NCBI RefSeq assembly: GCF_003473485.1
Contig: NC_053042.1
Location: forward strand, 8,886,501 to 8,950,500
Source: Medicago truncatula
Taxonomy: Eukaryota; Streptophyta; Magnoliopsida; Fabales; Fabaceae
Length of the DNA: 64,000 nt
Direction: 5' to 3'
In this document: piece after piece, positions 11,172 through 64,000 of the stretch
How positions within the stretch are numbered: position 1 is the stretch's first letter
Layout of the letters: every line of letters starts with the position of its first letter
Notes under the pieces: generated by a model
The model's database searches: none
Seen by the model: only the letters and a program-made list of their open reading frames with translations
Told to the model about the DNA's origin: nothing
Translations under genes and position numbers: made by a program

Positions 11172-11561
11172 ATTTCTCTTATGGTTATTTACCATTTTTA
11201 TGTTTTTTACCGTAGTTTTAATGTCGACATATAAAGTAAAAAAGGGAAGTACTTGTTTTACTTTGAAAAATGTTGATGACTACTGACAATGAACCAAATG
11301 AATTGAACTTGAGCTGAAAATTAAGTCTGTTAACTAAATAAGTTGAACTTGAGCTAGACATAATTCGACTCGTTTGATTCATGAACTAGCTCCGTATTAT
11401 ATATATAATATACTTAATATGAGTATACAATTAAAATAGTTAACTAAATATATAAAATTTGTTACACAATACTAAGTCAACCGAGAAACTTGGAAGTGGA
11501 ACAAGGCTTCCTCTAGTATATTGTTTTTAAAGAAACTACCTGTAATTCTAATAAAAAAATA

Positions 11562-35960: not shown

Positions 35961-36080
35961 TCGACTAAGGCAATTCAAAAAGACCCTGAGCCTTATATGC
36001 TACTAAATTTAGGACCATGTTGACTAAATCACAAGAATTCAGAAAGTTGATAATAATATTAAGTTTGTTAATAATTTTTT

Positions 36081-36394
36081 GGCAAAATTACACTTTTAGT
36101 CCCTTAACTTAATTTCAGGTAACAGTTTGGTCTTTATCTTTTTTTCATTTCAATTTAGTCCTTCTTGTCCATTTTCATATACATTTTCAAGCTTCAAATC
36201 TAATATTCTTATGTAAACATAGACGAGGATCATAGATTTGAAGACTGAATGACCATAAGAAAATAAAATCATGAATTTTAAGCTTAAAAGTTCATATGAA
36301 AATGGACAAAAAGGACCAAATTGAAATGAAAAAAAAATAAAGGACCAAACTGTTACCTGAAATTAAGTTAAGGGACTAAAAGTGTAATTTTGCC
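36081..36394. mobile_element. Near-palindromic MITE, copy 2 of 2, with 9-bp target-site duplication
   Basis: The ends GGCAAAATTACACTTTTAGT and ACTAAAAGTGTAATTTTGCC are perfect inverses. It is flanked by TAATTTTTT at 36072-36080 and 36395-36403. A 9-bp duplication points to Mutator-type mobilisation. Highly similar to 11562-11880. Confidence 0.9.
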
Positions 36395-36710
36395 TAATTT
36401 TTTTTAGGAGATGGAAATAATTTCTTTTCACCATGATATTTGTTGCTTGTTACATAAAAATATCTGTACAATAAATGGTAGAATTTTGGCAAAGAAATAA
36501 TTAATGCACTTGAAAATAATTGTCAAAACAGGGGTCAATTTTTTTTATCAAGAGAGTACTTTACTCGGGACAAAAGAAGGACAATCGACATGCCTATGAT
36601 GGTATTGAGATTTAGAATTGCCTTCTGGGATAATTTTGAAAATGTACTATAACTATTTGGTTTTATTTATTTTGTATCATTAAATCTCTTTCATTTTCAC
36701 ATTTCAATAG

Positions 36711-43131: not shown

Positions 43132-43980
43132 TTAAGATGTGGCTACCTGCACTAACGCATGAGCGACCTCATTCACTTGCCTCCTAATAAATTTGACATT
43201 AGAGTTTGTTAAAGAATTTTGACACAAATGGATACAATCATCCATAATGACACCAAATTCGGTATCACCTCTATTCCTTGCATAATAATCAACGACTTTC
43301 TTCCAGTCCACTTCAAAATCAATATTCGCTAATTCTAGCTCATTGATCCACTTCATAGCCTGATATAACCCCAAAGCTTCGCCAACTTCCACGTAGCATA
43401 AAAGTGTAAGCCATAGAGTTTTAGACAACACATAACACCCTTCCACATCTCGAATACACATACTTTTTTTTTCGAACAATCTCGAATACACATACTTATC
43501 CCTACTCTATTGATGGATGTTGAGAATGACACATCAACATTACATTTAAGCTTCCCAAATGCTGGTTTCTCCATCTTTGCTCTGCTGTTCTGTTAGTCTG
43601 ATGTACCATTAGACTGCAAGTCAGCTGTCGCGCTACTGCTGCTACTGTTATGCCTTGTACCAGCAGCTCTTGCATTTTGAGGTCTGTTCGCATCACAGCA
43701 ATCCTCTAATAAGTGCTTTTCGCGCTCCAGAATGCTGCTGTTCGTTTTTGTAGTTTGCTAACAAATTCTGAGATGTCTACTCTTCCACATGCTCGAAAGA
43801 ATTGTAGCGAAACTCTCAACTTGGCTGCTGTTGCCATATTGCAACATTGCAAAGATTACATCCTCCACACTTTGATATTGCTGAACCAAAGGCTCAAGAC
43901 TGCTCCAAACTCCACTTTGAGCAATGGGATGAGGGATAGTAGAACTCTAGAAGTTGGGTGCTTCAGTTCAAAAATATGAT
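43132..43980 (-). pseudogene. LINE remnant: RNase H-like domain, interrupted (unit 1)
   Basis: Minus-strand pieces in shifting frames read like the C-terminus of a plant non-LTR element: SGVWSSLEPLVQQYQS, ATILSSMWKSR, KPAFGKLKCNVDVSFS, then VGEALGLYQAMKWINELELA, GVIMDDCIHLCQNSL and VNEVAHALVQ. A stop (near 43597) and a 17-bp local duplication of AGTATGTGTATTCGAGA (about 43440-43500) break the frame. A near-identical copy lies at 51655-52440. Confidence 0.85.
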
Positions 43981-44179
43981 GTTGAGTGTCGAGGAAGAAA
44001 AATGAGACAATTTAGCTTGAAATAAAACTAATTTTATTATTTTATGATTTAGAGATTATTTTTTACAGAACAATGTTTAAGCGCACTACTCGCATACAAA
44101 CAACTTCTAAATTTTTACAAATTATTAAGATATTCAATTCTATCCTATGATGAGGGATTCAATAAATAAGTATCTTCTT

Positions 44180-46096
44180 TTATTCCTTAATCACTTCCAT
44201 TTGAAAAGTTCTTCTTGCCAAAGTGCGTTGATCATTAGTGGTTATGGAAGTCATCGAGTGAAAAGGATTAGGAGGCACAATTAACTCGATATCCTCTCCG
44301 GTTTCCAACATTTGCACAACATTTTTTATTGATGGACGATTTATCGGTTGCCATTGAATGCACCAAAGTCCAACAATTGCAAGTTTCTTTGCAATTTTAA
44401 GATCACCTTCATCCTCAATATGGATACGTATATCTCCTTCCAATAAGTTATGGATCCATTCTGGGTATAGCACATGAAAAGTTTCTGCAGACGTGTCTAC
44501 ATTCTTTCTCCCTCCAACCATTTCTAGCAACAACATTCCGTAACTGTAAATATCTGACTTAAGAGACACATTCCCAAAATTTCTTGATAGAACTTCAGGC
44601 GCCATGTATCCCAAGGTTCCCTTAGCAGCTGTCATGGACACAACGCTAAGATTCTTGGAACATAATTTGGCGAGACCAAAATCCGAAATTTTTGGCGTAA
44701 AGGATTCATCTAGCAAAACATTGTGAGGGTTGATGTCGAAGTGAATTATTGGATGGTTACAACCGAGATGTAGATACTCAATTCCTTTGGCAATTCCTAT
44801 ACCAATTTGTTGTAGCTTCTCCCACCCCATGAAATGGTCCTTGTTATCTGGTGGAAATATGAAGCTTTGTAGCGAACCATTTGGAAATAAATTGTAGACA
44901 AGAGCGCGGTGAATTCCATCTGCGCAGAAGCCAAGCAAACGAACCACGTTGATGTGGTGGATTTTGCCCATAATTCCCACTTCATTGATGAACTCTTTCC
45001 CTTCTCCCTCTGTACCATTGAGGATTTTCACCGCCACATGAATCTCACTCGAGAGCTTTCCTTTAAACACAGTTCCGTGAGCTCCTTCTCCTAGCTTTTC
45101 CTTGAACCCGTTTGTAATTCTTTTTATATCGGCATAAGAAAATCTAGTAGGTTTTTGTGCTCGATAATCCTCTAAAAACTTATCAACTCTAATTTGATCC
45201 TCTTCTTTCTTTCTAAAATAGAGATGTATCTTAAATAAAGCGATGAGAACCAGCCCCAAAAGAATTGAACCTAGAATAAAACATTAACTGTCAAATAAAA
45301 TTGTCTTCCAGCATAAATCGTCAAAGAAAAACATAAAACAAGTCTAACCTGTAGAGGCGTATATAAGAGATTTTGGAATTTGAATTGTTTTCCGTTTTTT
45401 GTTACAATCAAAACATTCAGTTTCGCCTTTGGTGCCGTTGTTCTTCCATTTGCATTTCATGCCATTTGCTTCGCACCTTGTACAATTATGTTTCGGCCAA
45501 CTTAAAGAGAGAAAATTATGCGTTAGGTCTGGTACCATGGTTGCCATATCGAACATCTTGACACATGATACAAGGTCCAACGAGAGGACACTTTTGTGAG
45601 AATTTGAAACGTAAACTGGACAGGTGATCATATCTTGCGACTCTTGGGATGTTTGATCATGGTTTCTCAAGTGTTGTTTCCTAACTGAAGAGCAATTGAA
45701 GAAAGACAATTTTGTCGTTCCTGGTTGTGGAAAAAATCGGTAAGGTAGAAATGATGAGTTGTTAAGTTTCAGAAACTTTTTAGGAATGCAATTGTCCGGG
45801 TCCATCACTGAAATTCGGTTTGATTCGTAGTCTATGTAATATACACGGAATTTGATTGGACCTGAAGTGGTAGAGAGGACCATCATGGTTTCCTTGTTTT
45901 CAGTACAATATAGGCAAAACTCAGGATGAGTACATTGATCTTGTGATGATTCCTCAACTAGTTGGAAGGGGAATCGAATATTTTGCAGATTGTGGTAAGG
46001 TCCACAAGATGATTCTCTGCACTCGTCAATACTGCTGCTTTTATGGATAAGCAGTAGTAGAAGCAGCAGCATGATCAAGCTATGTGCTCCTGTCAT
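44180..46096 (-). CDS. Receptor-like kinase A1 (LRK10L / GUB_WAK type), 612 aa, with Lys-to-Asn in the catalytic loop
   Basis: Two exons: 46096-45349 and 45270-44180, 78-bp intron. A signal peptide spans 1-22 (MTGAHSLIMLLLLLLLIHKSSS). A GUB_WAK-type Cys-rich domain follows (DECRESSCGPY, NIRFPFQL, CLYC), and a second Cys cluster (CTRCEANGMKCKW, TECFDC) precedes the membrane segment at about 251-268 (SILLGLVLIALFKIHLYF). Kinase domain: Gly loop GEGAHGTVFKG at about 310-320, VAVK Lys 331, catalytic loop HFDINPHN at 426-433, DFG at 446-448, then MAPE. HFD makes it a non-RD kinase, as is usual in this immune-linked family. The loop Lys (DIKPHN) is Asn 430 (codon 44731-44729), so phosphotransfer may be weak. 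Head-to-head with B1, 699 bp apart. Role and ligand unknown. Confidence 0.93.
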
Positions 46097-46795
46097 CCAA
46101 ATATTACAGGGTTTTCTTTTTTCAGCCCAAAAGAATGTGATAAGAAACCGAACTATGTTTGTTTCACACTTTTTCTGGGGTCGTTAATTTATCATGATTG
46201 TGACTGGTTTGAAAATAAAATGCATGAAATTAACCATATGAGACCAAGTCGTTTTTAAAAAATGAAATCAAATATTACCTGGCCGGACAAGCCTGGACTA
46301 AAAATTTAATGTCAACAATATAGTGCCATGTTAGGGATAGCAATGTCCCCAATGGGTAGGGTATTATAATGTCTGTTCCAATATTCGTGTTTGTAAAAAA
46401 TGCTTGTGTCCGAATTCATACCCACGTGGGCAACAACTTTAGTGTCCTTCCTCGTATCATATGAACATTTAAGCCCGTTTTCTTGTCCATTATCCACACT
46501 TTAACGCCAAAAAGATGATAAAAAAACACAGCAGTTGAATTTAAATATGATCCAAAATATAAAACTATCTAGAAAATTAATTTAAATTTTGAATAAATTT
46601 TTCCTTATAAATTTATTGGCAAGGGTATCAAAGAAATTTTCTAAATGTAAAGAACTAAAGATAAACTAATATATAAAGATCACAAGGTCGTTACTTTGCT
46701 TAATTAAAGGCACGCCAAATATGAACATAAGTTTCTAACATTTAATTTAATTTATTTGACCGTATACTTTCTCCATCAACAACAGTTTGGCCACT
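46097..46795. promoter_or_regulatory. Shared divergent promoter region between kinases A1 and B1
   Basis: 699 bp between the two ATGs; it must hold both promoters. Contains a repeat-like stretch (about 46310-46450, words GGGATAGCAATGTCC, CCCACGTGGG). Apart from about 60 bp next to the A start, it does not visibly align with the equivalent region of unit 2. Confidence 0.5.
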
Positions 46796-49700
46796 ATGTG
46801 GTGGATGAGAGTGATATTGGTACTGTTGCTGCCATTTTCGTTTCTATTCCAGCAAGGTACCTGCAGTGCTAGTACTGAGCAAGAGCATACTTGTCTCCCT
46901 TCATCTTGTGGTAAAATTTCAAACATAAGTTATCCATTTCGATTAAAAGATGATCCAATTCATTGCGGGGACAGCAGGTATGAGCTATCTTGTGCAAATA
47001 ATGTTACAACTTTATATTTGTATTCGGGAAAATATCATGTGCAATCCATCAACTACAACAATTTCACAATCAGACTGGTTGATCCCGGAGTTCAACAATC
47101 TAATTGCTCTTCACTTCCTCGCTATTTCTTGTCTCGATCGGATTTTTGTGATACTTACGAATATGAGGACAAACATTGCAAGGATCCATACCAAGCCGTG
47201 GTAGAAGAAGATCCAAGTGCCCTTCTTTTTGAGCATATAGTTTACTTGAATTGCAGCCATCAAGTGACTAACAGTCCTAAATATGTGAATACTTCTTCAT
47301 GTCTGAATTTGAACTCCAAATCCAAAGGGTATTATATATATGCTATGGCTGGTGATTTAATTGCTCAAGATTTTCAAGTTGGTTGTCATGTGAAATTGGT
47401 TACTCCAACTTCTTGGTCAGGTTTGCAAAGAAATCAAGTACTTTCCTATGATGTCATGCACAAAGCATTGGTATATGGATTTGATATTTCATGGTTCAAT
47501 CTTCCTTGTAAGAATCTTTGTGGGGATTCAGACTACTGTTCCTTCAACTATACCACCGAGAAACTTCATTGCTATCGTTTCTGCCATAATTTCTGGGGAG
47601 GAGATAGGGACGATCGTTTTTGCGGTAAAATATATTTATATTTGTCAATTTTATTTTGATTTTATTAACTCTAAACTTGTCTACCTTCACCTCAGTTAAA
47701 AAATTTAATTGCAGAATTTTTTTAATATCAATAAAAGGCTTATTTTTTTTGACGAAATTAAAACTTTAAGGGTATAACTACATATATATATATATATATG
47801 TTTAGGGTAGATTATTTTTTCTATAAAAAAAGTAGTATATCTTTTTAATATGTAAAATAAATTATTATTCACACACAATATGTCGAAATGCCAATAAAAG
47901 AAAAGAATAATTTTTTTAAAAGGAAAATAAGAATAATTTGTATTTTTTTTGTCAAAAAAAAGAGAATAATTTGTATTTTCTTTACCTAATCATCATATCA
48001 TAATAAATTTTAAGAAAGTGACATTTTCTTCCATTGTAAGGTGTTCGAGGGATATGGTATCAGCTTCGTGTATACGCTAAAGGTAAGAATTCTACATCGC
48101 CTAAATTTATAATAAAGGTAAGAGTTTTTTTTTTTTTTTTTTCCAGGTAGTCTAGCTAGAATTCACCTTATAAGATAAATAAGTGGGGTGTTCTGGGTTC
48201 GAACCTCAATCCTTGCATATAATAATGCATTATCCTACCAATTGAGTTTACATCACCTAAATTTAGAAATGTGGTTTTTTATGGTAAATTCTTAAATATC
48301 ACAATTTAGTTGAGTATAGGTAGCACAAATTTTTCTCTTAAATAAATTAATAAAAAATTATGATGATATGATATCATATTGAAAAAAAAATATTGAATGG
48401 TTAAACTAGAGATATGGACTTGATGATTGACTAATTATGATGCTCACTTTATATCAATTCAGAACAACTTTCTTTGTACATTATCTCATTCCCATTGTTA
48501 TATACTAAATCATTATTTTATCATCCATCGCCCTTTTATTCACTTAAGTTAATTGTTCATTGCAGATATTACAATCGCTATTTGGATAGGTGAGTTCTTC
48601 AATTATTCTGATGAAGAAATATTTTTTATTTGAATGATTTATTTTTCAAGAATATAGAAAGAGAAAAAACACCAGGTTTATTTTAGGAGAAATTACCAAC
48701 TCTAATTTTCTCTTGAAATCGGAGTATATAAAGGCTGAAAAATTCAAATGTACCATCTCTTATTCTGTAAAAATGTTATCTATTTTCATCTTTTAAATGT
48801 GTTTGTTTTAACTTGCTAATAAAATATGTAAAACATCCCCGTGAGCTTAGCTCAGTTGGTAGGGATATTGCATATTATATGCAGGGGTCGGGATTCGAAC
48901 CCTGGACACTCCACTTCTCCACAATTTAATTGTGTGAGTTCTGGCCACTAGGCTACTACTTGACAAAAAAATATATATATATATATATGTAAGACTCTTA
49001 TAGAGTACTAAACAAAATCTGCCTAAATTTTTGCTGCTATATATCTATTACTTTGGTATGTTTCAGGATTAATTGAAGTAATAAAAGGGCCAAACCTAAA
49101 ATATGAAGGTGATACAGAATATAAATTAGGATTACGCACAGGACGCTATGTTCTACCATCATTGGTTGCAGCTAGATTTCTGTTTGGGATGACATTATTT
49201 ATTGCCTTGTTGATATACAAATGGAAGAAAAGACATTTATCAATGTTTGATTATATTGAAATATATCTACAACAAGAAAACAATCTCATGCCCATTGGAT
49301 ATTCATACAAAGAAATTAAGAAAATGGCTAGAGGTTTCAAAGACAAATTAGGTGAAGGAGGCTTTGGCACTGTGTTTAAGGGAAAACTACGTAGCGGTCC
49401 TTGTGTGGCAATCAAGATGTTGGGTAAATCAAAAGGTAACGGGCGAGACTTTATAAGTGAAGTAGCAACCATTGGGAGAATACATCATTTGAATGTGGTG
49501 CAATTAATTGGATTTTGCACCGAGGGATCAAAACGTGCTCTTGTTTATGAGTTTATGCCTAATGGATCCCTCGATAAGTTTATTTTCTCTAAAGAAGGAA
49601 GTGTAAATATAAGCTATAGCCAAATTTTTGAAATATCGGTTGGAGTAGCTCGTGGGATTGCTTATCTCCATCATGGATGCGAAATGAAGATTTTGCATTT

Positions 49701-50316
49701 TGATATTAAGCCTCACAACATCCTTCTTGATGAGAACTTTACTCCGAAAGTCTCTGACTTTGGATTGGCTAAGCTATATCCTGTGGAGAATAGCATTGTC
49801 ACAATGACTGCGGCAAGAGGTACCATTGGATATATGGCTCCAGAATTGTTTTACAAAAATATTGGAGGAGTGTCCTATAAGGCCGATGTTTATAGTTTTG
49901 GGATGCTTTTGATGGTGATGGCAGGTAAAAGGAAAAACCTAAATGCCCAAGCAGAGCATTCAAGTCAGCTTTATTTTCCTTTATGGATTTATGATCAATT
50001 TGGACATGAAGGAGAAATAGAAATAGAAGATGTGACAGAGGAGGAAAAGAAAATAGTAAAGAAGATGATCATAGTGGCACTTTGGTGTATACAATTGAAA
50101 CCAGATGATCGCCCTTCAATGATCAAGGTAGTGGAGATGCTCGAAGGAGATGTTGAAAGCCTTGAAATGCCTCCAAAGCCAACCCTTTATCCACATGAAA
50201 CGGTTGTAGACGATCAAAGAACCAACCTTGACCAAACAATGTCGAGTGATGATTACACTAGTTCTTATGATTCTGTTGAAAGAGAAACTAGTTCTCTGAT
50301 AGAGAATATTGCTTGA
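46796..50316 (+). CDS. Receptor-like kinase B1 (LRK10L / GUB_WAK type), 711 aa
   Basis: Four exons: 46796-47624, 48050-48082, 48566-48589, 49067-50316 (2136 nt including the stop). The first ATG is at 46796 ([18 protein letters not shown] signal peptide); an in-frame TTG at 46787 is not a start. The GUB_WAK-like ectodomain has [29 protein letters not shown] and many N-glycosylation sites. Two tiny exons encode [11 protein letters not shown] and DITIAIWIG; an alternative acceptor 9 nt upstream of exon 2 (after TTGTAAG) would add three residues. The membrane segment is at about 328-345 ([18 protein letters not shown]). Kinase: GEGGFGTV at 391-398, VAIK Lys 412, HFDIKPHN at 506-513 (non-RD, catalytic Lys 510 kept), DFG 526-528, MAPE. 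Residue 579 is Val where B2 and the A kinases have Glu (GMLLMVMAG). The sequence fits a cell-surface receptor kinase; ligand unknown. Confidence 0.93.
48129..48255 (-). mobile_element. SINE (degenerate) in B1 intron 2
   Basis: Poly-T (48125-48142) then GGTAGTCTAGCTAGAA, and GGGTTCGAACC at about 48195, the reverse of the 48837-48987 element. ACATCGCCTAAATTTA (left) and ACATCACCTAAATTTA (right) may be its diverged target duplication. Confidence 0.7.
48837..48987 (+). mobile_element. tRNA-derived SINE in B1 intron 3
   Basis: Starts CCCCGTGAGCTTAGCTCAGT with box A and continues to box B GGGATTCGAACCC, ending TACTTGACAAAAAAATATA. ATATGTAAAAC before and ATATGTAAGAC after resemble a target-site duplication. 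Opposite in orientation to the SINE in the preceding intron. Confidence 0.85.
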
Positions 50317-50529
50317 ATGTTCACAAAAGCAAAATCTTATGTATCCACTTATTGTTTATTACACTGTTCTTATGTAATGCCTTTTCCACTACTGTGTTCT
50401 ACATCAAATGTTCGAAATAGTTTCTTCATTTGTAATTAATATGTAATAATGTTAAAATCTCATTCAACTGTGAACCTATCTATATGGTAATTTAGCATAC
50501 TGAACTATATTGGATAAATGGTGTTCTTT

Positions 50530-51060
50530 TTGTTTTTTTTTTTTAAATCAGCATATTTTATTAAACAGCCCCGGCACAAGTAGTGCCTAAAAGGCAAGAG
50601 GGCACATAAAAATCAGAACAACGAAACACCACAAAATACACACTAACAGCGGCCAAAAACAAAAGAAAAAACCACACCAGCAACTTCCACAAACTGTCAA
50701 ACAGGAAACCAATGGCAACATCAGTCGAAAGCCAATGACAGCAGCACAAAATACAAACGCCAGATAACACAGCTACCACACACTACCTCCTTTAAGCACT
50801 CTTTCGGGTTCCAACACCATTGATAATAAAGGCCTGACGCAATTTTCAACTTACTCAACGATCAATGCCAAGACAAACGCTTTATTTCATCAACTATCTC
50901 ATCAACTTCCACCGCCTTATCATTAAAAATTTGATTATTTTTATCTCTCCAAATATCCCAAATCACGGTATGCCAAATCATCAAATACCCTCTTTTGCGC
51001 TTATTTGAGCTCGCGCCATTCCTCCAACACTCAGCGTTTGGTTATTTTCCATCGGCAATT
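50530..51060 (-). mobile_element. LINE 3' end with poly(A), unit 1 copy
   Basis: Minus strand: KNNQIFNDKAVEVDEIVDE and FLFDSLWKLLVWFFLLF-like C-terminal sequence, then TTTAATAAAATATGCTGATT and poly(A) (poly-T on plus, about 50532-50545). Compared with unit 2 this copy has a 4-bp deletion near 51037 (CTCAGCGTTTGG against CTCAAGATTCCTTTGG) that shifts the frame. Confidence 0.8.
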
Positions 51061-51170
51061 AACTGCCGCAGAGCTTCAAACCTGGAATTTTCCATTCTAA
51101 AAAAATAACCACATCGATAGTTAACAACTGCCGGTTTAATTCATCGGTAGTTAACTACCGAGGGATTATT
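51054..51170. repeat. Cluster of TTAACTACCG palindromes (unit 1)
   Basis: Three related words: CATCGGCAATTAACTGCCG, CATCGATAGTTAACAACTG and CATCGGTAGTTAACTACCGA. The last is a near-perfect palindrome centred on GTTAAC. The same cluster is in unit 2. Confidence 0.75.
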
Positions 51171-51648
51171 TTCGTAAAATACTTGTGTTTCTTAGCAAAC
51201 ATTGAAGTGTGAACAGCAATATTCATGTTTACTTCCTTAAAATGGGCCAACTATAATATAAGAAAGATCCTATATAAATTCTTTATATAGAATTTAAGAC
51301 GCATAAAAACAATGTGTATGCTACCTACACTCCTACATTTTGCAAAACACACCGGCGTTTCCAAACTAATTATAAAAATAAGTTTTAAATTCTTAAAGGT
51401 AAAATAATTTGAATTTTGTAACTTAACCTGTTTACTTTGCAAAAACAATTTTTATTTTCATTTTCTCAATTCATGTTATTTTATTTATTAACAAAAAGAA
51501 AATTATACTTTTAAAAACGAGTTTATTTTCTTCTTGTTAAGAAATAAAACTAATACAAATTTTTTATTAAAAAAAACTAATACAAATTTTATTAAATGAA
51601 AATAGAAAAAACTTCCTTCATAAAGGACCTTAAGTTTTCAAAAACTTG

Positions 51649-51654
51649 AATAAA
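51649..51654. other. Duplication breakpoint with 6-bp microhomology AATAAA
   Basis: Sequence left of here matches the right edge of unit 2 (AAACTTG before 63558) and sequence right of here matches the left edge of unit 1 (TTTGACATTAGAG after 43191). AATAAA is present at all three places: 43186-43191, 51649-51654, 63558-63563. Confidence 0.9.
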
Positions 51655-52440
51655 TTTGACATTAGAGTTTGTTAAAGAATTTTGAAACAAATGGATACAA
51701 TCATTCATAATGACACCAAATTCGGTGATATCACCTTTATTCCTTGCATAATAATCAACGACTTTCTTCTAGTCCACTTCAAAATCAACATTCGCTAATT
51801 GTAGCTCATTGATCCACTTCATAGCCTGATATAACCCCAAAGCTTCGCCAACTTCCACGTAGCATAAAAGTGTAAGCCATAGAGTTTTAGACAACACATA
51901 ACACCCTTCCACATCTCGAATACACATACTTTTTTTTTTTTAACAATCTCGAATACACATACTTATCCCTACTCTATTGATGGATGTTGAGAATGACACA
52001 TCAACATTACATTAAGCTTCCCAAATGCTGGTTTCTCCATCTTTGTTCTGCTGTTCTGTTAGTCTGATGTACCATTAGACTGCAAGTCAGCTGTCGCGCT
52101 ACTACTGCTACTGTTATGCCTTGTACCAGCAGCTCTTGCATTTTGAGGTCTGTTCGCATCACACCAATCCTCTAATAAGTGCTTTTCGCGCTCCAGAATG
52201 CTGCTGTTCGTTTTTGTAGTTTGCTGAAAAATTCTGAGATTTCTACTCTTCCACATGCTCGAAAGAATTGTGGCGAAACTCTCAACTTGGCTGCTGTTGC
52301 CATATTGCAATATTGCAAAGATTACATCCTCCACACTTTGATATTGCTGAACCAAAGGCTCAAGACTGCTCCAAACTCCACTTTGAGCAATGGGATGAGG
52401 GATAGTAGAACTCTAGAAGTTGGGTGCTTCAGTTCAAAAA
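51655..52440 (-). pseudogene. LINE remnant: RNase H-like domain (unit 2 copy)
   Basis: Near-identical to 43192-43980 but keeps a longer minus frame at 52355-52059 (VQQYQSVEDVIFAILQYG, ATILSSMWKSRNLRIFQQ, SILEREKHLLEDWCDA) because unit 1 has a stop in place of that region's GAAAAA. It is still broken overall by the shared stop and local duplication. Confidence 0.85.
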
Positions 52441-52645
52441 TATGATGTTGAGTATCGAGGAAGAAAAATGAGACAATTTAGCTTGAAATAAAACTAATTT
52501 TATTATTTTATAATTTAGAGATTATTTTTTACAGAACAATGTTTACGCGCACTACTCGCATACAAACAACTTCTAGATTTTTACAAATTATTAAGATACT
52601 CAATTCTTTCCTATGATGAGGGATTCAATAAATAAGTATCTTCTT

Positions 52646-54547
52646 TTATTTCTGAATCACTTCCATTTGAAAAGTTCTTCTTGCCAAAGTGCGTTGATCA
52701 TTAGTGGTTATGGAAGTCATCGAGTGAAAAGGATTAGGAGGCACAATTAACTCGATATCCTCTCCGGTTTCCAACATTTGCACAACATTTTTTATTGATG
52801 GACGATTTATCGGTTGCCATTGAATGCACCAAAGTCCAACAATTGCAAGTTTCTTTGCAATTTTAAGATCGCCTTCATCCTCAATATGGATACATATATC
52901 TCCTTCCAATAAGTTATGGATCCATTCTGGGTATAGCACATGAAAAGTTTCTGCAGACGTGTCTACATTCTTTCTCCCTCCAACCATTTCTAGCAACAAC
53001 ATTCCGTAACTGTAAATATCTGACTTAAGAGACACATTCCCAAAATTTCTTGATAGAACTTCAGGCGCCATGTATCCCAAGGTTCCCTTAGCCGCTGTCA
53101 TGGACACAACACTAATATTCTTGGAACATAATTTGGCGAGACCAAAGTCCGAAATTTTTGGAGTAAAGGATTCATCTAGCAAAACATTGTGAGGGTTGAT
53201 GTCAAAGTGAATGATTGGATGGTTACAACCGAGATGAAGATACTCAATTCCTTTGGCTATACCAATACCAATTTGTTGTAGCTTCTCCCACCCCATGAAA
53301 TGGTCCTTGTTATCCGGTGGAAATATGAAGCTTTGTAGCGAACCATTTGGAAACAAATTGTATACAAGAGCACGGTGAATTCCATCTGCGCAAAAACCAA
53401 GCAAACGAACCACGTTGATGTGGTGGATTTTTCCCATAATTCCCACTTCATTTATAAACTCTTTTCCTTCTCCCTCTGTACCATTGAGCATTTTCACCGC
53501 CACAAGAATCTCACTCGAGAGCTTTCCTTTAAACACAGTTCCGTGAGCTCCTTCTCCAAGTTTTTCCTTAAACCCGTTTGTAATTCTTTTTATATCAGCA
53601 TAAGAAAATCTAGTAGGTTTTTGAGCTCGATAATCCTCTAAAAACTTATCAACTCTAATTTGATCCTCTTCTTTCTTTCTAAAATAGAGATGTATCTTAA
53701 ATAAAGCGATGAGAACCAGCCCCAAAAGAATTGAACCTAGAACAAAACATTAACTGTCAAATAAAATTGTCTTCCAGCATAAATCATTAAAGAAAAATAT
53801 AAAACAAGTCTAACCTGTAGAGGCGTATATAAGAGATTTTGGAATTTGAATTGTTTTCCTTTTTTTGTTACAATCAAAACATTCAGTTTTGCCTTTGGTA
53901 TTGTTGTTCTTCCATTTGCATTTCATGCTTTTAGCTTTGCATTTTGTACAATTTTGTTCAGGCCAACTCAAACTGACGGAAAGATACTGCACAAATATGT
54001 TTGACGTGTCAAACATTTTCGTACACGATACAAGGTCCAATGCGATGACACTGTCGTAGGAATCAGAAATGTAAATTGGACAGGTGATCATATCTTGTGA
54101 CCGTTGAGATGATTGATCTTCGTTTCTCAGGTGTCGTTTCTTAAATGAAGAACAATTGAAGAAAGATGATTTTGTTATTGATTCTGAATAAAATCGGTAA
54201 GGTGGAAATGAGGTCTTGTTAAGTTTCAGAATTTTTTCCGAAATGCAATTGTCTGGGTCCGAAATTGAAAGTTGGTTTGATTCGTAGTCTATGTAATCTA
54301 CAAAGAATATGAATGGACCTGAAGTGGTAGATAACACCATCATGGTGTTCTTGTTTTGAGTACAATATAGGCAAAACTCAGGATAAACACATTCATGTTG
54401 TGATGATTCCTTAACAAGTTGGAAGGGGAATCGAATAATCGGTTCGTAAGGTCCACATGACAATTCTCTGCACTCTTCATGACTGCTGCTGTTATTGATA
54501 AGCTGTAGTAGAAACAGCAGCATGATGAAACTGTGTGATCTTGCCAT
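52646..54547 (-). CDS. Receptor-like kinase A2 (LRK10L / GUB_WAK type), 607 aa, with Lys-to-Asn in the catalytic loop
   Basis: Two exons: 54547-53815 and 53736-52646 (1824 nt including the stop), 78-bp intron as in A1. Signal peptide MARSHSFIMLLFLLQLI; ectodomain ECRELSCGPY, IIRFPFQLV, CLYC; Cys cluster CTKCKAKSMKCKW; membrane segment as in A1. Over the last 359 residues it differs from A1 at only six positions (EILVAVKML for EIHVAVKIL, KNIS for KNLS, GDIC for GDIR, and the tail), whereas the ectodomain differs at many positions and is five residues shorter. The catalytic loop is again HFDINPHN (Asn codon 53197-53195); the Gly loop, VAVK Lys, DFG and APE are intact. Head-to-head with B2 across 1081 bp. 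Confidence 0.93.
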
Positions 54548-55628
54548 TCTAATGTTACAGGGATTTGTTTTTGAGCCTAAAAGAAAGTGATAAGAACCAA
54601 ACTCTAATGCTTCTTTTTAATACTACTCCCTCATTTTAAATGAACTTAATGTTTAATAGACACCCTAATTCATCGTTCATTCTACATCTAAGATGGATTC
54701 ATAGGAAATATGAAACCCATCCAAATATAGAATGGACGGATGAGGTGCCCACCAATCAAGAATGAAACAATTATATAGTGTGGGGGCTTATGCTCCACTA
54801 TAATTTGTGATTATTTTCTTCTACAACTATACATCATGTATTGACATTTGACAATATATTTGTTTACATATATAATATAAATAAATTGGTAAATTTTACT
54901 AGTGGCACACACCAAACCCACTCAAATTCAATCCAAACCTCAATTCAGCATTTGAACTTTTATGTGCAAGTCAAGTCCCTCCCTAATAAATAAAGGAAAA
55001 CTCAAACACCCCATGTGAAAATGTAGGGTGAGTGGTTAAATAAGTGTTTAGTTGTTTATGTATAGATGGATATTTTTATTGACGTTAAAAATGAGAAAAT
55101 CATTTAATATTTTTAGAATATAAAAGGCACGTTTGTTTTAGATTTAACAAAAAAAAATGGATTTTTCTTTGTATTTTTAAAAATGGATTTTTGAAAATTT
55201 ATTCAAAAATAATTTGGGATGTCAGGAGTGTTATTTAGAGATGGAGGGAGTAGCATTTATGTAAATATGGTCAAAGTAGATTATGTAATTATGTAATTAT
55301 GTAAATAGTAAACGTAGTCAAATTGTGATAATATCTATGAATGTTGTCGACGGGTCATATAAAAGAGATTGAAGAGTATAAAGTTAACAACGTTTTTTTT
55401 TTTTAAACCAAATATCCTCCGCAGGTAACTGTCGAGACTACTATCTTTAACTTTACGGACTCAAATGGACGACAAACTATTCCTAAAGTTTTAATGCTGT
55501 TGTTGATTAAGATATAAGAGACATACTTCATCTCACCAGGTTGGTTTGACAACGTCTTTATAGCCTTGTACGCACGCCATATCTGAACAAAGAAACACAA
55601 GCTTGAAATCAAAAACTGCTTCGCTACT
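54548..55628. promoter_or_regulatory. Shared divergent promoter region between kinases A2 and B2
   Basis: 1081 bp. About 60 bp next to the A2 start resemble unit 1; the rest does not. It contains a Stowaway-like element (54626-55250) and a poly-T-headed fragment (55393-55615) that may be a small retroposon. Confidence 0.5.
54626..55250. mobile_element. Stowaway/mariner-like element in the A2-B2 promoter
   Basis: Ends CTCCCTC and GAGGGAG with TA on both sides (54624-54625 and 55251-55252), the usual Stowaway arrangement. 625 bp, no coding capacity. Absent from the A1-B1 promoter. Confidence 0.65.
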
Positions 55629-58600
55629 ATGTGGTGGTGGGTGAGAGTGATATTGGTACTGTTGTTACCATTTTCACTTCTAATTCAACAAGGTAGCAGC
55701 AGCACTACAACAAGTGCTTGTCCACCTTCATCTTGTGGTAAAATTTCAAACATAAGTTATCCATTTCGATTAAAAGATGATCCAATTCATTGCGGGGATA
55801 GCAGGTATGAACTATCTTGTGAAAATAACGTGACAACCTTAAATTTGTATTCCGGAAAATATTATGTGAAATCCATCAACTACAACAATTTCATAATCCG
55901 ATTGGTTGATATTGGAATTCAACAAGATAATTGTTCTTCATTTCCTCTCTATTTCTTGACTCAATCTGATTTCTGTGTAAGATACAATTACGTGGACAAA
56001 TATTGCACAGATCCATACCAAGCCACAGCAGGAGGAGGAGGAGGAGGAGGTTCCAATGCCCATCTTTTTGAGCATATAGTTTACTTGAATTGTACTCATC
56101 GAGTGACCAACAATCCTAAATATGTGAATATTTCTTCATGTCTCAATTGGAGCTCTAAATCCCAAGGGTATTATATTTATGCTATGGCTGGTGATTTAAT
56201 TGCTGATGATTTTCAAGTTGGTTGTCATGTGATGTTGGTTACTCCAACGTCTTGGTTGAGAAACTTGCAAGGAAATGAAGTGGTTTCTTATGATGTTATT
56301 CGCAAGGCGTTAGAATATGGATTTGAGATTTCGTGGTTGCGTCATATTTTTCAAGATCGTTGCAAAGGTAGTACGCAATGCTCCTTAAACACTTCAACTG
56401 AGACGCTTCAATGCGTTTGCTTTTGCCGGAGTTTCTGGGGAACTTGGAGCGAAACTTGTGGTAAATATTACTTCACTCAACTTGATTTTCATTAGTTTAA
56501 AGATCATGGTCATTCACAATTTAGTCTTTGACAAAGCTTTGAATCATTAAGTTTAAAAATCCCTTGACTCAGCATCTTCCTGGAAAACAAACTAGAATAT
56601 TAATGGTAGCTCGACCGTGAATGATGGCCATCCAAAGACAGTCCAGAGTGATAACAAAAGTAGTAAGCCAATTCTCATCACTCATGATAAAATAGCCTTT
56701 CCAATTCCTCAACAATCATTCATTCAATAGGATCCCAGCACCAAAAGTTTGAGCTAATATTATGGATGCATTCACTATCATGTGTTAGTCTGCGCTAACC
56801 ACGATTTTCATTCGTAAGGAGACATTTTCCCGCAGCCTTCCAAACCAAACACTTCATCCTCTGCAAGCCCAACCATTTCCAAATCAAACGGTTCAGATCA
56901 CTATTAGAGTTATGATCGAAACCTCGAAAGGAGGAATATTCTGCTTTAGAAGAAAAAGAGCCATATGATGAACCCTGCCAAACCATTGTATCAAAAGTAA
57001 CCAAATCACCAGGTACATGCATAGCTCGAATCCTATGAATCACCGCAACAGAAACATAAGGTCTCAACCTATGTAGGTCCTGTCTATTGTTACCATCAAT
57101 GTACTACATGACCATTTTTTCCCTCTCACCTTAGTTATGATTACAATGTATAAATAAGTGACACTTTCTTCTATTTTTGGGTCGTGCAGGAATACGGTCC
57201 CAGCTGAGTTTCTACACTAAAGGTAAGAATACTTATATAATGTTAATATATCGATGTCATTTTTCCATTTATAAATAGGTAAGCATTTTTCTAAAAAATA
57301 TTGACCGTGTCTTTTTCCTTGATTTCATCATGTTCATATATATACAACAATAATATCCTAATGACCCTCCTACAATCATCAAATCATTATAGTAATATAT
57401 AATATTATACAATAAATATAGATAACCTCAGATCCCTAGATCCCTTGTCACTCAAAACTCTAAATTTTTATGACGTTTCCCCTCTTTTAGTTCTAGGAAA
57501 AAAAAAATGTGATTTTTAACTTTGCTTTATAGGCAAAACTAATATGATTTGAATCAAACTTTCAGATATTTTACTATGACTCGAATCATAGCATGATTGG
57601 AATAAACCCTTACAACAACACATGATGTGATTTTTCATTGCAAGATTTGAATCATGCTTACCCTTGTTCAAATTAACTTGTCCATAAAACTACTAGAACC
57701 CAGTTTCGACACCTGATTCGAATCAAAATAGCACTCCAATTACTATGATTTGAATCAACGCCTCTAGAAGCTAAAAAAACAATGGATTTTAAGCACAACT
57801 GTTCTCGAACATGACTCCAAATCAATAGTGATGTCAATTTAATTATCAACCATATTGTTAATATCTCCATCCTCAAGTTACTTTTCAAAATAATTGATCA
57901 AGTTTAAGTCTCTCTTAAACCTTGATCCAGTCACTGACCTCCAACCATCCTTTGTAACCTCACAATATTTTAAATTTGATTCTTCTTCTCTATCAATTTT
58001 CAGCTATCCTTGTATCTACCTGCACTTTGTAGTCCCACATGATTCATCTTTACCTCTACAACCCGCAGAATATCTACCAACCTCTTGAAGATCATGCATC
58101 CTGTTGCGAATTTAGGCTCAAAATCACACCAATGAAAAACAAATATGTGTGGAACAAAGGAAAGTAGTAACTAGTATCAAAGTAATCACAAGCAAAAACA
58201 ATAAAAAAAAACCTAGATCAAATCTAGGAATCAAAGTGAAAAATACAAAACCACAAGCAAAAGATAAAGAGATCTTAGAAATCGGTTGGGCCTAACACAA
58301 CCCCACTTGTGAGGTGAGGATTGCCCCCACTTATAAACACATTGTCACACCATCACCGATCCGATGTGGGACTCTTAACACACCCCCTCACGACCAGCAC
58401 AATTGGGTTTGGTTCGTGGACATAAATGGTGGGTGGCTTGATAGCAGGTGGCCCAATGGATATTGGAGAGACTCTGATACCATCTTAGAAATGGTGGTTG
58501 GACCTAACACAACCCCACAAAAACGGCTTATGAGGTGAGAATTGCCCCCACTTATAAACACATTGTCAGATCATGTCATGTCATGTCCGATGTGGGACTC

Positions 58601-61600
58601 TTAACAAGAGAGAAAAGAAACAAACATACCAATAAATGTTTACTCAATTCGGTCCAACTTGGCCTACTATGGGGGAGAGATTGATCTCTCCAATCCACTA
58701 TCAAGAGTTACAAAATGGTTACAAGAAATTAGCTTCAACGAACTCACAAAGAACAAACCCTAATTTCTACCATTTTCCAAATCTCACAAAAGAACAAGAC
58801 ACTATGATTTTCGCTCATCCAAGGTGTTTACAAACATTTTCCAACCCAAGATAACCTTTCAAGAAAACACTAATCAAAAGTCATCAACCCTAAAGTTACC
58901 TGCTTTGATATCCCTAGTTTCTCTCTCTTGAAGCTCTACCAAAAACATGAAGAATGAAGCCTTAAATAGTGTCCAGACCCCGAGGCATCGTGCCACATTT
59001 CCAGCCCATCATGCCACGTTGGAGTTGGTGGCAGTACAATACTTGATCTTATCTCCTGGATCGTGCCACGTTGCTCATGCATTGTTCAACGTTTCCATCG
59101 TGTCATGTTGCCTCTGCATCGTGCCACGATTTTTCCAGTGACAGCCTACCATAAACACACCCAAAATCGTGTCACGTTGCCCTGCAAACGTGCCACGATT
59201 TTTCCAGACTTCAACATCAATTTTGAGACACATTTCAACATATCCAACTACCCTGGGATTTTTAGGTGGCTCGATAAATTGTACCATAACCTCTTAAATC
59301 CCTAGAATGTTCCTTTTAGTCCCTTGAAAATCCACATGCCTCAGACTATCCGTAGATTTTGGGATAGTCCCACAAGTTGTACCATTATTTCTTCAACCCT
59401 CAAAATGCATTATGTACTATTGAATATTTCCTTGCATCCAACTACCTTTGTATTTAGAGATAGTCCTACAAGTTCCAAAATATGAGTTTCCTTGCTCTCA
59501 ATTGCTTCCCTGAAATTCCTCGGTTCCGAGTCTTGCACTTATGTAGCTTCAATTAGAGCATAACCCACAAAGTCTCCATAGAACCGCTTTGGTGAAACAA
59601 TATCCTCTATTTACTCATCTCTTACAAGACACGCACACATACACACACATGAGCCATAATTGATTGTCTTCTTCTACTCCAACTATTGGAAGATTCCACT
59701 TCTTCTACAACAGCTTCACACCATAAACCCTTTGATGACTCAACTTCTAAAAGTGTATATCCATTATGTCTTTTGAACGGATGTGAAATAAAATTCACAA
59801 CATTGTCCAGGAACATTATGTCTTTTTGGGATGACTCATGCTTATTGTTAACAATTTCTCTCAATTTCTCTCAAGTCCAGGAACATACCTCACATCTTGC
59901 AAATCATACTCATGCTTATCCGTTAATCTTTTCCCTAATGATTTCTAACTGCCCAAGATGTTAAAAATGTGTTTCCCAACCATAATAATTCACCAAAGAG
60001 CCCTCAATACTAAACCTGAGTTTCTATGGTGTTTCCCTTATTTTGGTTCTAGTAAAAGACTGATTTATAACTTCGTTTTTAAAGGAAAAACTGGCATGAT
60101 TCCAACCACTCTACCCTAGTTCAAATCAACCCCCACAATAACACCTGATCTAGTTTTTAAGTACATTATTCAAATATACTTACCCTGATTTTAATCAACC
60201 CATTTATTCACTTAACTTAAATTTTTATTGCAGATACTATCATCACTATCTGGATAGGTGAGTTCTCTTACCATTCTGCTGCAAAAAATATTTTACGAGC
60301 ATGATTTGTGTTTCCAAAATTTTTTTTTATGCAAAATAAAATAATTTTTTTTTCAGTTTCAGTTCATCAAAAATATTCGGGTGCCGTTTGTTTTAGATTT
60401 TTTAAAAATTACTTTTGTTGTAATACCAGAGTTATGTTTATGTGTGTCCCTGTGAGTTTAACTCAATTAGTATGTAAGGTTTGGGGTTCGAACCCCGACC
60501 ACCAGAAAAAAAAAAAGTTATGTTTATCGGTAGGCTATTCTCAGAAATAATTTTTTCTTTGAAAATGAGTTTGAAGTTGAAAAGAAAATAATACTTTGAT
60601 TAGCTTCTAAACAAAATTATTTTTAATAGAAGGGAAGGAAAAATATAATTTATGGTGTATGTGCTTTTTCAACCTATTAATGAAACACCATATTTTTCAG
60701 AGGATCATATTTCTATATACTATTTTTTCATTTTATAAGATTCTGTCTCTCCTCAAATCCAAAACCAACACTTATTCAATGTGTATTTTGTAAGGTAATG
60801 GCCTTAGTGTTTCCGAATAGTATATCTCTAATATAATCTGCCTAAATTTTTGCTGCTATATATCTATTACTTTGGTATGTTTCAGGATTAATTGAAGTAA
60901 TAAAAGGGCCAAACCTAAAATATGAATATGATACAGAGTATATAATAGGATTACGCACAGGACACTATGTCCTACCGTCCTTCTTTGCAGCTAGATTTCT
61001 GTTTGGGATGACATTATTTATTGCCTTGTTGATATACAAATGGAAGAAAAGACATTTATCAATGTTTGATTATATTGAAATATATCTGCAACAAGAAAAC
61101 AATCTCTTGCCCATTGGATATTCATACAAAGAAATTAAGAAAATGGCTAGAGGTTTCAAAGACAAATTAGGTGAAGGAGGCTTTGGCACTGTGTTTAAGG
61201 GAAAACTACGTAGCGGTCCTTGTGTGGCAATCAAGATGTTGGGTAAATCAAAAGGTAACGGGCGAGACTTTATAAGTGAAGTAGCAACCATTGGGAGAAT
61301 ACATCATTTGAATGTGGTGCAATTAATTGGATTTTGCACCGAGGGATCAAAACGTGCTCTTGTTTATGAGTTTATGCCTAATGGATCCCTCGATAAGTTT
61401 ATTTTCTCTAAAGAAGGAAGTGTAAATATAAGCTATAGCCAAATTTTTGAAATATCGGTTGGAGTAGCTCGTGGGATTGCTTATCTCCATCATGGATGTG
61501 AAATGAAGATTTTGCATTTTGATATTAAGCCTCACAACATCCTTCTTGATGAGAACTTTACTCCGAAAGTCTCTGACTTTGGATTGGCTAAGCTATATCC

Positions 61601-62135
61601 TGTGGAGAATAGCATTGTCACAATGACTGCGGCAAGAGGTACCATTGGATATATGGCTCCAGAATTGTTTTACAAAAATATTGGAGGAGTGTCCTATAAG
61701 GCCGATGTTTATAGTTTTGGGATGCTTTTGATGGAGATGGCAGGTAAAAGGAAAAACCTAAATGCCCAAGCGGAGCATTCAAGTCAGCTTTATTTTCCTT
61801 TATGGATTTATGATCAATTTGGACATGAAGGAGAAATAGAAATAGAAGATGTGACAGAGGAGGAAAAGAAAATAGTAAAGAAGATGATCATAGTGGCACT
61901 TTGGTGTATACAATTGAAACCAGATGATCGCCCTTCAATGATCAAGGTAGTGGAGATGCTCGAAGGAGATGTTGAAAGCCTTGAAATGCCTCCAAAGCCA
62001 ACCCTTTATCCACATGAAACGGTTGTAGACGATCAAAGAACCAACCTTGACCAAACAATGTCGAGTGATGATTACACTAGTTCTTATGATTCTGTTGAAA
62101 GAGAAACTAGTTCTCTGATAGAGAATATTGCTTGA
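55629..62135 (+). CDS. Receptor-like kinase B2 (LRK10L / GUB_WAK type), 712 aa
   Basis: Four exons: 55629-56460, 57190-57222, 60234-60257, 60886-62135 (2139 nt including the stop), same structure and phases as B1. Signal peptide [18 protein letters not shown]; ectodomain [19 protein letters not shown] and [10 protein letters not shown]. Seven consecutive Gly at 135-141 come from a (GGA)n run (56031-56050) absent from B1. The tiny exons encode [11 protein letters not shown] and DTIITIWIG. From the membrane segment onward the last 375 residues differ from B1 at two positions (Leu for Met in NNLLPIGY, Glu for Val in MLLMEMAG), while the ectodomain and the juxtamembrane part ([17 protein letters not shown]) are clearly diverged. 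Catalytic loop [11 protein letters not shown] and APE are intact, so an active non-RD kinase is expected. Confidence 0.93.
56570..57110 (-). mobile_element. LINE fragment (reverse-transcriptase zinc-binding region) in B2 intron 1
   Basis: Minus frame 57067-56795: [20 protein letters not shown] and [20 protein letters not shown], typical of the zf-RVT domain of plant LINEs. Further degraded coding similarity runs down to about 56570. B1 intron 1 (425 bp) lacks it. Confidence 0.75.
57480..60200. mobile_element. Inserted repeat block filling B2 intron 2
   Basis: About 2.5 kb not present in B1 intron 2. Parts seen: degenerate GATTCGAATCA words (57540-57760); a direct repeat of about 110 bp (58273-58380 and 58482-58605; words GCCTAACACAACCCCAC, CCGATGTGGGACTCTTAACA); and an island at 58985-59215 with seven copies of a CGTGCCACG-type word. 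No intact ORF or clear LTR pair was found. A nested retrotransposon remnant is the likely explanation. Confidence 0.5.
60449..60516 (+). mobile_element. SINE fragment in B2 intron 3
   Basis: CCCTGTGAGTTTAACTCAAT (box A region), then GGGGTTCGAACCCC (box B), then poly(A). GTTATGTTTAT at 60431-60441 and 60517-60527 looks like the target-site duplication. Internally shortened compared with 48837-48987. Confidence 0.75.
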
Positions 62136-62349
62136 AAGTTCACAAAAGCAAAATCTTATGTATCCACTTATTGTCTATTACACTGTTCTTATGTAATGCC
62201 TTTTCCACTACTGTGTTCTACATCGAATGTTCGAAAAAGCTTCTTCATTTGTAATTAATATGTAATAATGTTAAAATCTCATTCAACTGTGAACCTATCT
62301 ATATGGTAATTTAGCATACTGAACTATATTGGATAAATGGTGTTCTTTT

Positions 62350-62880
62350 TGTTTTTTTTTTTAAATCAGCATATTTTATTAAACAGCCCCGACACAAGCA
62401 GTGCCTAAAAGGCAAGAGGGCACATAAAAATCAGAACAACAAAACACCACAAAATACACACTAACAGCGGCCAAAAACAAAAGAAAAAACCACACCAGCA
62501 ACTTCCACAAACTGTCAAACAGGAAACCAATGGCAACATCAGTCGAAAGCCAATGACAGCAGCACAAAATACAAACGCCAGATAACACAGCTACCACACA
62601 CTACCTCCTTTAAGCACTCTTTCGGGTTCCAACACCATTGATAATAAAGGCCTGACGCAATTTTCAACTTACTCAACGACCAATGCCAAGACAAACGCTT
62701 TATTTCATCAACTATCTCATCAACTTCCACCGCCTTATCATTAAAAATTCGATTATTTTTATCTCTCCGAATAGCCCAAATCACGGTATGCCAAATCATC
62801 AAATACCCTCTTTTGAGCTTATTTGAGCTCGCGCCATTCCTCCAACACTCAAGATTCCTTTGGTTATTTTCCATCGGCAA
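62350..62880 (-). mobile_element. LINE 3' end with poly(A), unit 2 copy
   Basis: The open minus frame at 62880-62539 reads KRGYLMIWHTVIWAIRRDKN, IFNDKAVEVDEIVDEIKRL and GLYYQWCWNPKECLKE, then continues into the hydrophobic tail and poly(A) (poly-T on plus near 62352). This copy keeps the frame that unit 1 lost. Confidence 0.8.
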
Positions 62881-62990
62881 TTAACTGCTGCAGAGCTTCA
62901 AACCTAGAATTTTCCATTCTAAAAAAATAACCACATCGGTAGTTAACAACTGCCGATTTAATTCATCGGTAGTTAACTACCGATGGATTA
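62871..62990. repeat. Cluster of TTAACTACCG palindromes (unit 2)
   Basis: Same three words as in unit 1; here 62964-62985 is a perfect 22-bp palindrome (half-site CATCGGTAGTT) centred on GTTAAC. Confidence 0.8.
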
Positions 62991-63346
62991 TTTTCGTAAA
63001 ATACTTGTGTTTCTTAGCAAACATTGAAGTGTGAACAGCAATATTCATGTTTACTTCCTTAAAATGGGCCAACTATAATATAAGAAAGATCCTATATACA
63101 TTCTTTATATAGAATTTAAGACGCATAATAACAATGCTTATGCTACCTACACTCCTACATTTTGGAAAACACACCGGCGTTTCCAAAATAATTATAAAAA
63201 AAAGTTTTGAATTGTTAATGGTAAAATAATTTGAATTTTGAAACTTAACTCGTTTAGTTCGCAAAAACAATTTTTATTTTCATTTTCTCAATTCATGTTA
63301 TTTTATTTGTTAACAAAAAGAAAATTATACTTTTAAAAACGAGTAG

Positions 63347-63430
63347 TGTTGGCAATGGAGGGAAGATAGAATGCTATACAGGGATAATTCATTGTTTTAA
63401 AAAATGCAAAACAATTGTTCGGTTTACGAG
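63347..63430. other. 84-bp segment between ACGAG direct repeats, absent from unit 1
   Basis: In unit 1 the sequence reads AAAAACGAGTTTATT; in unit 2 ACGAG is followed by 84 bp and a second ACGAG before TTTATT. Either a short insertion with a 5-bp duplication, or a microhomology-mediated deletion in unit 1. Confidence 0.7.
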
Positions 63431-64000
63431 TTTATTTCCTTCTTGTTAAGAAATAAAACTAATACAAATTTTTTATTAAAAAAAACTAATACAAATTTTA
63501 TTAAATGAAAATAGAAAAAATTTCCTTCATAAAGGACCTTAAGTTTTCAAAAACTTGAATAAACCGGTGTAGTGAGGTGAGTTGGTTTTCAGGAAACAAA
63601 AATATTTTGAGTATTTTTGGAAATGAAAAATATGATTTGTAAAACCTAAGGGTGTAGGAAGCAATAACCCAATAACAAAGAGTTTAGGCAACAATAGCCC
63701 CATCCTTAAGCTCAAACCATTTGATATGCCCTAAAATATAATCTTGGAACAATTTCACTTAAATTCTTAGACGAGATAATTTTTGATAAAAATGATGAAG
63801 TGTGTGTTTGATTTCCCGTTTGCAAAAACACGTTTGCTTGTTTTCTGATGTATTCTTACCGTGATTTTCAGAAACTTTAAATACTAACTTTTACGCTAAC
63901 GTGGTTGTTTATCGTGATATCCATCAAACTCTGGTATGCAAACGCTGTACCAAACAAAGAAATATTTAAGTACAGTGGTGAATGGTGCATTCGAGTATAG

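Follow-up and report, generated by a model that had tools for sequence, protein, structure and literature searches.

How did a tandem duplication come to be young at both ends and old in the middle? This question is raised by a 64,000-nt stretch of the Medicago truncatula genome (assembly GCF_003473485.1, contig NC_053042.1, positions 8,886,501 to 8,950,500), hereafter the window, in which positions are counted from its first base. The window carries a direct tandem duplication, and each copy consists of two receptor-kinase genes placed head to head (A1 and B1 in copy 1, A2 and B2 in copy 2). Gene A has two exons and is read from the minus strand, and gene B has four and is read from the plus strand. 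Judged by their Pfam domains, these genes are putative LRK10-like or wall-associated-kinase-like (WAK-like) receptor kinases. In each copy the arms, that is, the kinase ends of A and B and the non-coding flanks, enclose a core that comprises the ectodomains of the two genes, the promoter region they share, and the introns of B (Table 1). The answer favored here, to which we assign a probability of roughly 0.55, is that an illegitimate exchange placed in tandem two haplotypes that had their arms in common but carried different old cores.

The duplication was delimited by comparing the window with itself (self-blastn) and by inspecting the ends of the matches. Three blocks match, 43186-46154 with 51649-54603, 49016-51522 with 60835-63344, and 51517-51654 with 63426-63563, and the two copies abut. 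The pattern had been placed by a first-pass annotation at 45350-61010, which lies inside the unit, but the full unit is larger, and its homology ends only at 43186 and 63563. The left edge (43186-43463) falls in a dispersed repeat of about 280 bp, with tens of matches at 68-77% among those listed, and the open reading frame (ORF) there may be a piece of a retrotransposon RNase H. The AATAAA microhomology at the copy junction is also present at both outer ends (43186-43191 and 63558-63563). Direct copies that abut with only such short homology at their junction are the structure by which illegitimate recombination is recognized. There are 8 differences in the outermost 300 bp on the left and 2 in the outermost 138 bp on the right, and the left non-coding differences are spread evenly up to the edge (Kolmogorov-Smirnov p = 0.86). 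Because the copies are young up to both edges, it follows that they were made recently. The duplication itself is young, and the cores were already different when joined, or one was replaced soon after.

Divergence was followed along the unit at neutral sites, meaning non-coding and synonymous sites taken together. It amounts to 2.1% in the left arm, 2.6% in the right arm, and about 22-33% in the ectodomain core. The arms are therefore about ten times younger than the cores, so that a difference in age of about tenfold separates the duplication from the sensing parts. The outer non-coding flanks are almost identical, as first described, with 22 differences in 990 aligned sites on the left and 38 in 1337 on the right, besides six indels. 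The ectodomain exons are strongly diverged, also as described, the synonymous divergence (dS) being 0.27-0.30 for A and 0.42-0.44 for B, and the non-synonymous divergence (dN) 0.17-0.18 and 0.19-0.21, respectively. The divergent promoter can be aligned only in short stretches adjoining the two genes. Around 55029-55215 the core 2 promoter contains pieces of dispersed repeats that recur at 76-91% identity in at least 26 other genomic places, and insertions of this kind contribute to the failure of the two promoters to align.

On the B side, the introns are strongly diverged, as had been claimed, but they do not fail to align altogether. Around the two small exons 47996-48093 aligns with 57136-57233 and 48500-48653 with 60174-60320, at identities of 47/65 (72%) and 92/123 (75%) when the exons are left out. 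The sharp step expected at the B membrane segment is real, but it lies at 49015/49016 within intron 3, 51 bp ahead of the kinase exon. It is followed by 90 bp with zero differences (49016-49105) and then by a diverged micro-patch just outside the membrane segment. Beyond this patch, neutral divergence is 0.013 in 49171-50316 and 0.028 in 50317-51654.

The left side is more complex. It was partitioned by a two-state hidden Markov model (HMM) with preset rates of 0.025 and 0.25 and switch rates of 1e-3, 1e-4, and 1e-5. Going inward, the young left arm is followed by an old patch within the A kinase exon, a low-divergence island, and the core segment 45394-46154, which has a neutral divergence of 0.247. 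The same segments emerge with the two higher switch rates, 1e-3 and 1e-4, whereas the strictest rate, 1e-5, fuses the patch, island, and core segment into a single old stretch (44627-46154) with a divergence of 0.180. The patch differs from the outer left arm with a Fisher p of 1e-14 and the island from its flanks with a Fisher p of 9e-8, both values being optimistic in that the partitions are derived from the data they test. Codons 34-211 of the A kinase have a dS of 0.256 (25 synonymous differences in 115.2 sites) and 3 non-synonymous differences, and codons 212-359 a dS of 0.011.

The first-pass annotation had called the kinase arms nearly identical. Its counts from the membrane segment on, 6 of 359 residues between A1 and A2 and 2 of 375 between B1 and B2, were correct on recount. 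The statement holds for the proteins, but not for the synonymous sites of the A kinase, in which purifying selection hides an old patch behind 98% protein identity. High identity of kinase arms can thus mask a synonymous mosaic. The short A intron, said to be strongly diverged, differs at only 4 of its 78 bases and lies inside the island; instead of the single step predicted at the A exon 1/intron junction, this side shows a mosaic with three switch points.

Two further observations concern the patch. The ratio of non-synonymous to synonymous differences is lower between A1 and A2 than between A1 and the comparison gene A921 over about the same codons (3/26 and 27/45; Fisher p = 0.008). At the 28 sites that differ within codons 34-211, outgroups agree with A2 at 14 and with A1 at 7, and 7 are undecided.

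Related gene pairs show how unusual such a step is. For the B type, 7 genes with both parts give 21 pairs; the ratio of ectodomain to kinase dS is 31 for B1/B2 and 0.68-1.77 for the other 20. For the A type, 23 of 30 fetched loci were used (7 were dropped for short or missing parts), and 86 of the 253 pairs had a usable dS in both parts; the ratio has a median of 1.2 and a 5-95% range of 0.71-2.42. The B1-B2 kinase dS is 0.013, and that to the nearest other relative among the 7 genes is 0.25. The B1-B2 ectodomain dS, by contrast, equals that of B1-B904 (both 0.415), and B2-B908 stands at 0.429, from which it is reasoned that the two cores match separate units in age. In trees of 6 genes each, A1 and A2 group together with an ultrafast bootstrap support of 100 for the ectodomains and 99 for the kinase patch. 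The cores are probably old sister lineages, with an age on the order of that of separate units of the cluster.

The data show directly the tandem structure, its junction, the young arms at both edges, the old cores, and the mosaic switch points, as well as the lack of a near-identical donor for those parts of the cores that were searched. Among the three explanations offered by the first-pass annotation, the evidence best supports an exchange that joined haplotypes differing in their cores. Under this explanation, the population held two forms of the unit on different chromosomes, with the same outer arms and different cores. Such forms may have arisen in an older array of related units, in which crossing-over or conversion would have yielded chromosomes with a single unit each, alike in the arms but not in the core; the switch points would lie within the conserved kinase exons or beside them, and unequal crossing-over or conversion was probably involved. 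Both forms would then have met in a heterozygote, where an illegitimate exchange at 6 bp of microhomology could have put them in tandem. The structure of that last step is visible at the junction, and its partners are inferred. The young island and the micro-patch suggest that further short exchanges occurred. On this account the cores would already have been on different chromosomes at the time of joining, and the way in which each came by the same arms is likewise a reconstruction.

Several points weigh against the haplotype explanation. One genome alone cannot prove that the cores were alleles, and whichever model is preferred, the mosaic of old patch, young island, and micro-patch calls for additional events of conversion or crossing-over. 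The A1/A2 ratio for the whole kinase, 2.36, falls inside the control range because of the hidden patch, so the step is visible only within the kinase. The grouping of the B1 and B2 ectodomains has moderate support (81 with 5 genes, 90 with 8). The search for a core donor was confined to 45350-46350 (the A1 ectodomain stretch) in core 1 and 53810-56495 in core 2. Finally, the right arm is uneven. There are 27 differences in 600 sites at 50917-51516 and 9 in 599 at 50317-50916 (p = 0.003, for a division chosen post hoc), one of the indels is an 87-bp one at 51516, and divergence climbs toward the right edge before the young last 138 bp; the uneven stretch still remains far below the core in divergence. 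Hypermutation of methylated repeats was considered as the full cause of this unevenness and rejected, as only 5 of the 27 differences are CG-context transitions.

A possible though doubtful alternative is that the duplication came first and that a third, sister unit later overwrote the core of one copy by gene conversion, the tracts ending in the kinase exons. This would yield the same structure. Kinase stretches have a lower dN than ectodomains in the compared pairs and would make natural tract ends. For example, in the OAK receptor-kinase cluster of Arabidopsis thaliana a 2.7-kb conversion tract between two cluster genes begins near the start codon and extends 60 bp into the kinase sequence (PMC3136440). 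Such a replacement needs a donor. DNA searches covered the genome of 429.9 Mb in 42 contigs, with only the best candidates scored. For 45350-46350 and 53810-56495 no near-identical donor was found, the best match being the other core at 81-82%, short repeat pieces of the core 2 promoter aside. For these parts a replacing donor would therefore have to be absent from the genome, either lost or on another haplotype, or else it would have to match other parts of the cores. For replacement from a third paralog, as first proposed, the parts searched give no near-identical donor, and the two cores group together in trees, with moderate support for B. The right non-coding arm is also not quite even (Kolmogorov-Smirnov p = 0.04), which is unexpected under a single young age and speaks weakly against replacement. 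The left non-coding arm is near-identical over its full length (97%) at the two copies only, the next listed match being at 77%, and the right one (97-99%) likewise at the two copies only, with shorter pieces elsewhere.

A921 was examined as a donor and rejected. Codons 121-180 of A2 look A921-like at synonymous sites, but the amino acids do not follow. Codons 121-205 contain 13 differences; four outgroups agree with A2 at 10 of these and give no decision at the other 3, so that it is A1 that carries the changed bases, and conversion from A921 is not claimed.

It is rather improbable that the tandem duplication is old and that both arms of one copy were homogenized by conversion while the cores escaped. 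Tandem copies are generally known to convert each other, the left mosaic of short tracts shows that short exchanges did occur, and the rise in divergence toward the right edge would fit. Homology ends at the outer edges, however, and both conversion and homologous unequal exchange would for this reason be expected to leave an old, unconverted fringe there. Such a fringe is absent; the few differences at the two outermost stretches would have probabilities of 2e-19 (left) and 3e-11 (right) if the divergence were 0.2. Conversion of both arms, the second of the explanations first proposed, is disfavored on these grounds.

The chance that the structure is an assembly artefact, with two haplotypes of a heterozygous plant placed end to end, appears very small. 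The copies do resemble divergent versions of one locus, but the window contains no letter outside ACGT, and the precise 6-bp junction is far too short for an assembly overlap. We also take the assembly to be that of the inbred Medicago truncatula reference A17, which counts against an artefact. Ordinary duplication followed by diversifying selection on the ectodomains alone can be set aside, as the first-pass annotation had argued, since the higher dN/dS of the ectodomains (0.46-0.57, compared with 0.06-0.17 for the kinases, in A1/A2 and B1/B2) does not account for a roughly tenfold step at synonymous and intronic sites, where divergence is anything but even, or for the absence of such a step from the 20 other B pairs.

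The haplotype explanation has a precedent in kind. OAK is a tandem receptor-kinase array shaped by duplication, deletion, and gene conversion, in which a new promoter has been recruited, and its alleles are described as differing mainly in one extracellular region, the remainder being alike (PMC3136440). The locus studied here resembles OAK in its tandem array and in a divergence concentrated in the extracellular part, with the rest alike; the way in which synonymous and intronic divergence changes abruptly from ectodomain to kinase is also of the kind by which an OAK-like exchange is recognized. It differs in that OAK is a single malectin-like/leucine-rich repeat (LRR) gene with known population alleles, whereas A and B are two head-to-head genes of the GUB_WAK_bind kind that share one differing core, and in that both versions of the core stand in tandem in one genome, here known from one assembly. 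Joining different versions of a locus is a known route by which plants vary their receptors, and a receptor cluster can keep two sensing versions in one genome instead of as alleles. Across 15 Medicago assemblies, synteny is reduced at receptor-kinase clusters, and the locus is not named in the passages concerned (PMC5369179). No publication on it was found in the open-licence literature.

NS1a and NS1b of Medicago truncatula are reportedly two linked, paired receptor kinases with sequence polymorphism, of the malectin-like LRR type. They resemble A and B in being a linked receptor-kinase pair in a legume; joint action of A and B is a guess from their arrangement. Movement of the core as a two-gene block, if it occurs, would suggest that the two receptors function as a pair. 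One may go further and suppose, although we consider it unlikely, that the two head-to-head genes form a single recognition module inherited as a whole, whose ectodomains and promoter are swapped and kept together as a cassette between constant kinase arms because the receptors work as matched partners. In that case the array would serve as a stock of matched sensor pairs, much like a self-incompatibility locus, and the window would present two versions of the module side by side.

Table 1. Positions of the duplication, its divergence segments, and the predicted exons in the window.
Feature	Position	Strand	Basis or measure
Copy 1 (arms and core 1)	43186..51654		self-blastn, end inspection
Copy 2 (arms and core 2)	51649..63563		self-blastn, end inspection
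Copy junction, 6-bp microhomology AATAAA	51649..51654		copy 1 end overlaps copy 2 start
Left arm, young	43186..44624		23 neutral differences/1089 effective sites (0.021); HMM
Old patch within A kinase exon	44627..45158		25/115 (0.217); HMM
Low-divergence island (membrane segment, A intron, exon 1 end)	45161..45392		4/118.7 (0.034); HMM
Core 1 (A1 ectodomain, divergent promoter, B1 ectodomain and introns)	45394..49015		copy 2 counterpart about 53860-60834
Diverged micro-patch just outside B membrane segment	49106..49170		11 differences (at 49108-49165); 4/16.7 at neutral sites
Right arm, young	49171..51654		41 neutral differences/1571 effective sites (0.026)
A1 exon 2, membrane segment and kinase	44180..45270	-	splice sites read from sequence, frame checked; Pkinase match
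A1 exon 1, ectodomain with GUB_WAK_bind	45349..46096	-	domain match, splice sites read, frame checked
B1 exon 1, ectodomain with GUB_WAK_bind	46796..47624	+	domain match, exon modelling
B1 exon 2	48050..48082	+	exon modelling; alternative start 48041
B1 exon 3	48566..48589	+	exon modelling
B1 exon 4, membrane segment and kinase	49067..50316	+	domain match, exon modelling
A2 exon 2, membrane segment and kinase	52646..53736	-	splice sites read, frame checked
A2 exon 1, ectodomain with GUB_WAK_bind	53815..54547	-	domain match, splice sites read, frame checked
B2 exon 1, ectodomain with GUB_WAK_bind	55629..56460	+	domain match, exon modelling
B2 exon 2	57190..57222	+	picked among several open combinations for likeness to B1
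B2 exon 3	60234..60257	+	exon modelling
B2 exon 4, membrane segment and kinase	60886..62135	+	exon modelling

All exon models are predictions. The A models encode 612 (A1) and 607 (A2) residues, with a GT-AG intron of 78 bp and a frame open from ATG to stop. For the B genes several exon combinations are open and mutually alike ones were chosen, giving 711 residues for B1 (714 with the alternative start of exon 2) and 712 for B2. All four ectodomain ORFs match GUB_WAK_bind, with E values from 9.4e-12 (A2) to 2.1e-18 (B2). The protein kinase domain was found in the A1 and B1 kinase ORFs, the two of the four that were scanned (E = 5e-44 and 3.6e-46), and the A2 and B2 kinase ORFs are 98.3% and 99.5% identical to them. 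In this combination of ectodomain and kinase domain A and B are like LRK10-like and WAK-like kinases. Unlike the WAK-type domain make-up, none of the four ectodomain ORFs matches WAK_assoc, the C-terminal ectodomain half, at E up to 0.001, although a fast-evolving form of it may escape detection. Intron 3 of B1 contains the second copy of an inverted repeat pair (24164-24317 and 48820-48971, 81% alike). In its motif, the copy at 48820-48971 resembles a tRNA-derived short interspersed element. Intron 3 of B2 has an apparently similar insertion near 60440-60505.

Related kinases form a cluster on this contig (C1, NC_053042.1), and the pair in the window stands at its left end, as judged from the best 113 of 2056 candidates. 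Between 8.93 and 9.56 Mb, 15 neighboring A/B head-to-head pairs occur among the 44 kinases listed; shuffling gives a mean of 5.5, and none of 20,000 shuffles reaches 15. Kinases were assigned to a type according to their identity to the A1 kinase, and the count excludes a few fragments. The head-to-head A/B pair is a repeated arrangement. Head-to-head A/B neighbors are also seen among the matches listed on contigs C3 (9.69/9.71 Mb) and C4 (35.67 Mb). Within the C1 cluster, the A917 kinase (9170298-9171383) has two in-frame stops and the B917 kinase (9180875-9181997) is broken, which indicates that some pairs of the cluster are decaying. On C6, at 16.608-16.628 Mb, four A-type kinases lie in tandem at 5956-bp steps, three of them virtually identical in the compared kinase and ectodomain stretches and the fourth at a dS of about 0.02.

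Elsewhere in the window there are inverted-repeat elements that are probably small transposons, namely two self-complementary copies at 11548-11889 and 36072-36407 (92% alike), an inverted pair at 33423-33717 and 34476-34765 (93% alike), and a perfect palindrome of 62 bp at 2439-2506. In the genome as a whole, the late-nodulin family has 159 matches at E up to 0.001.

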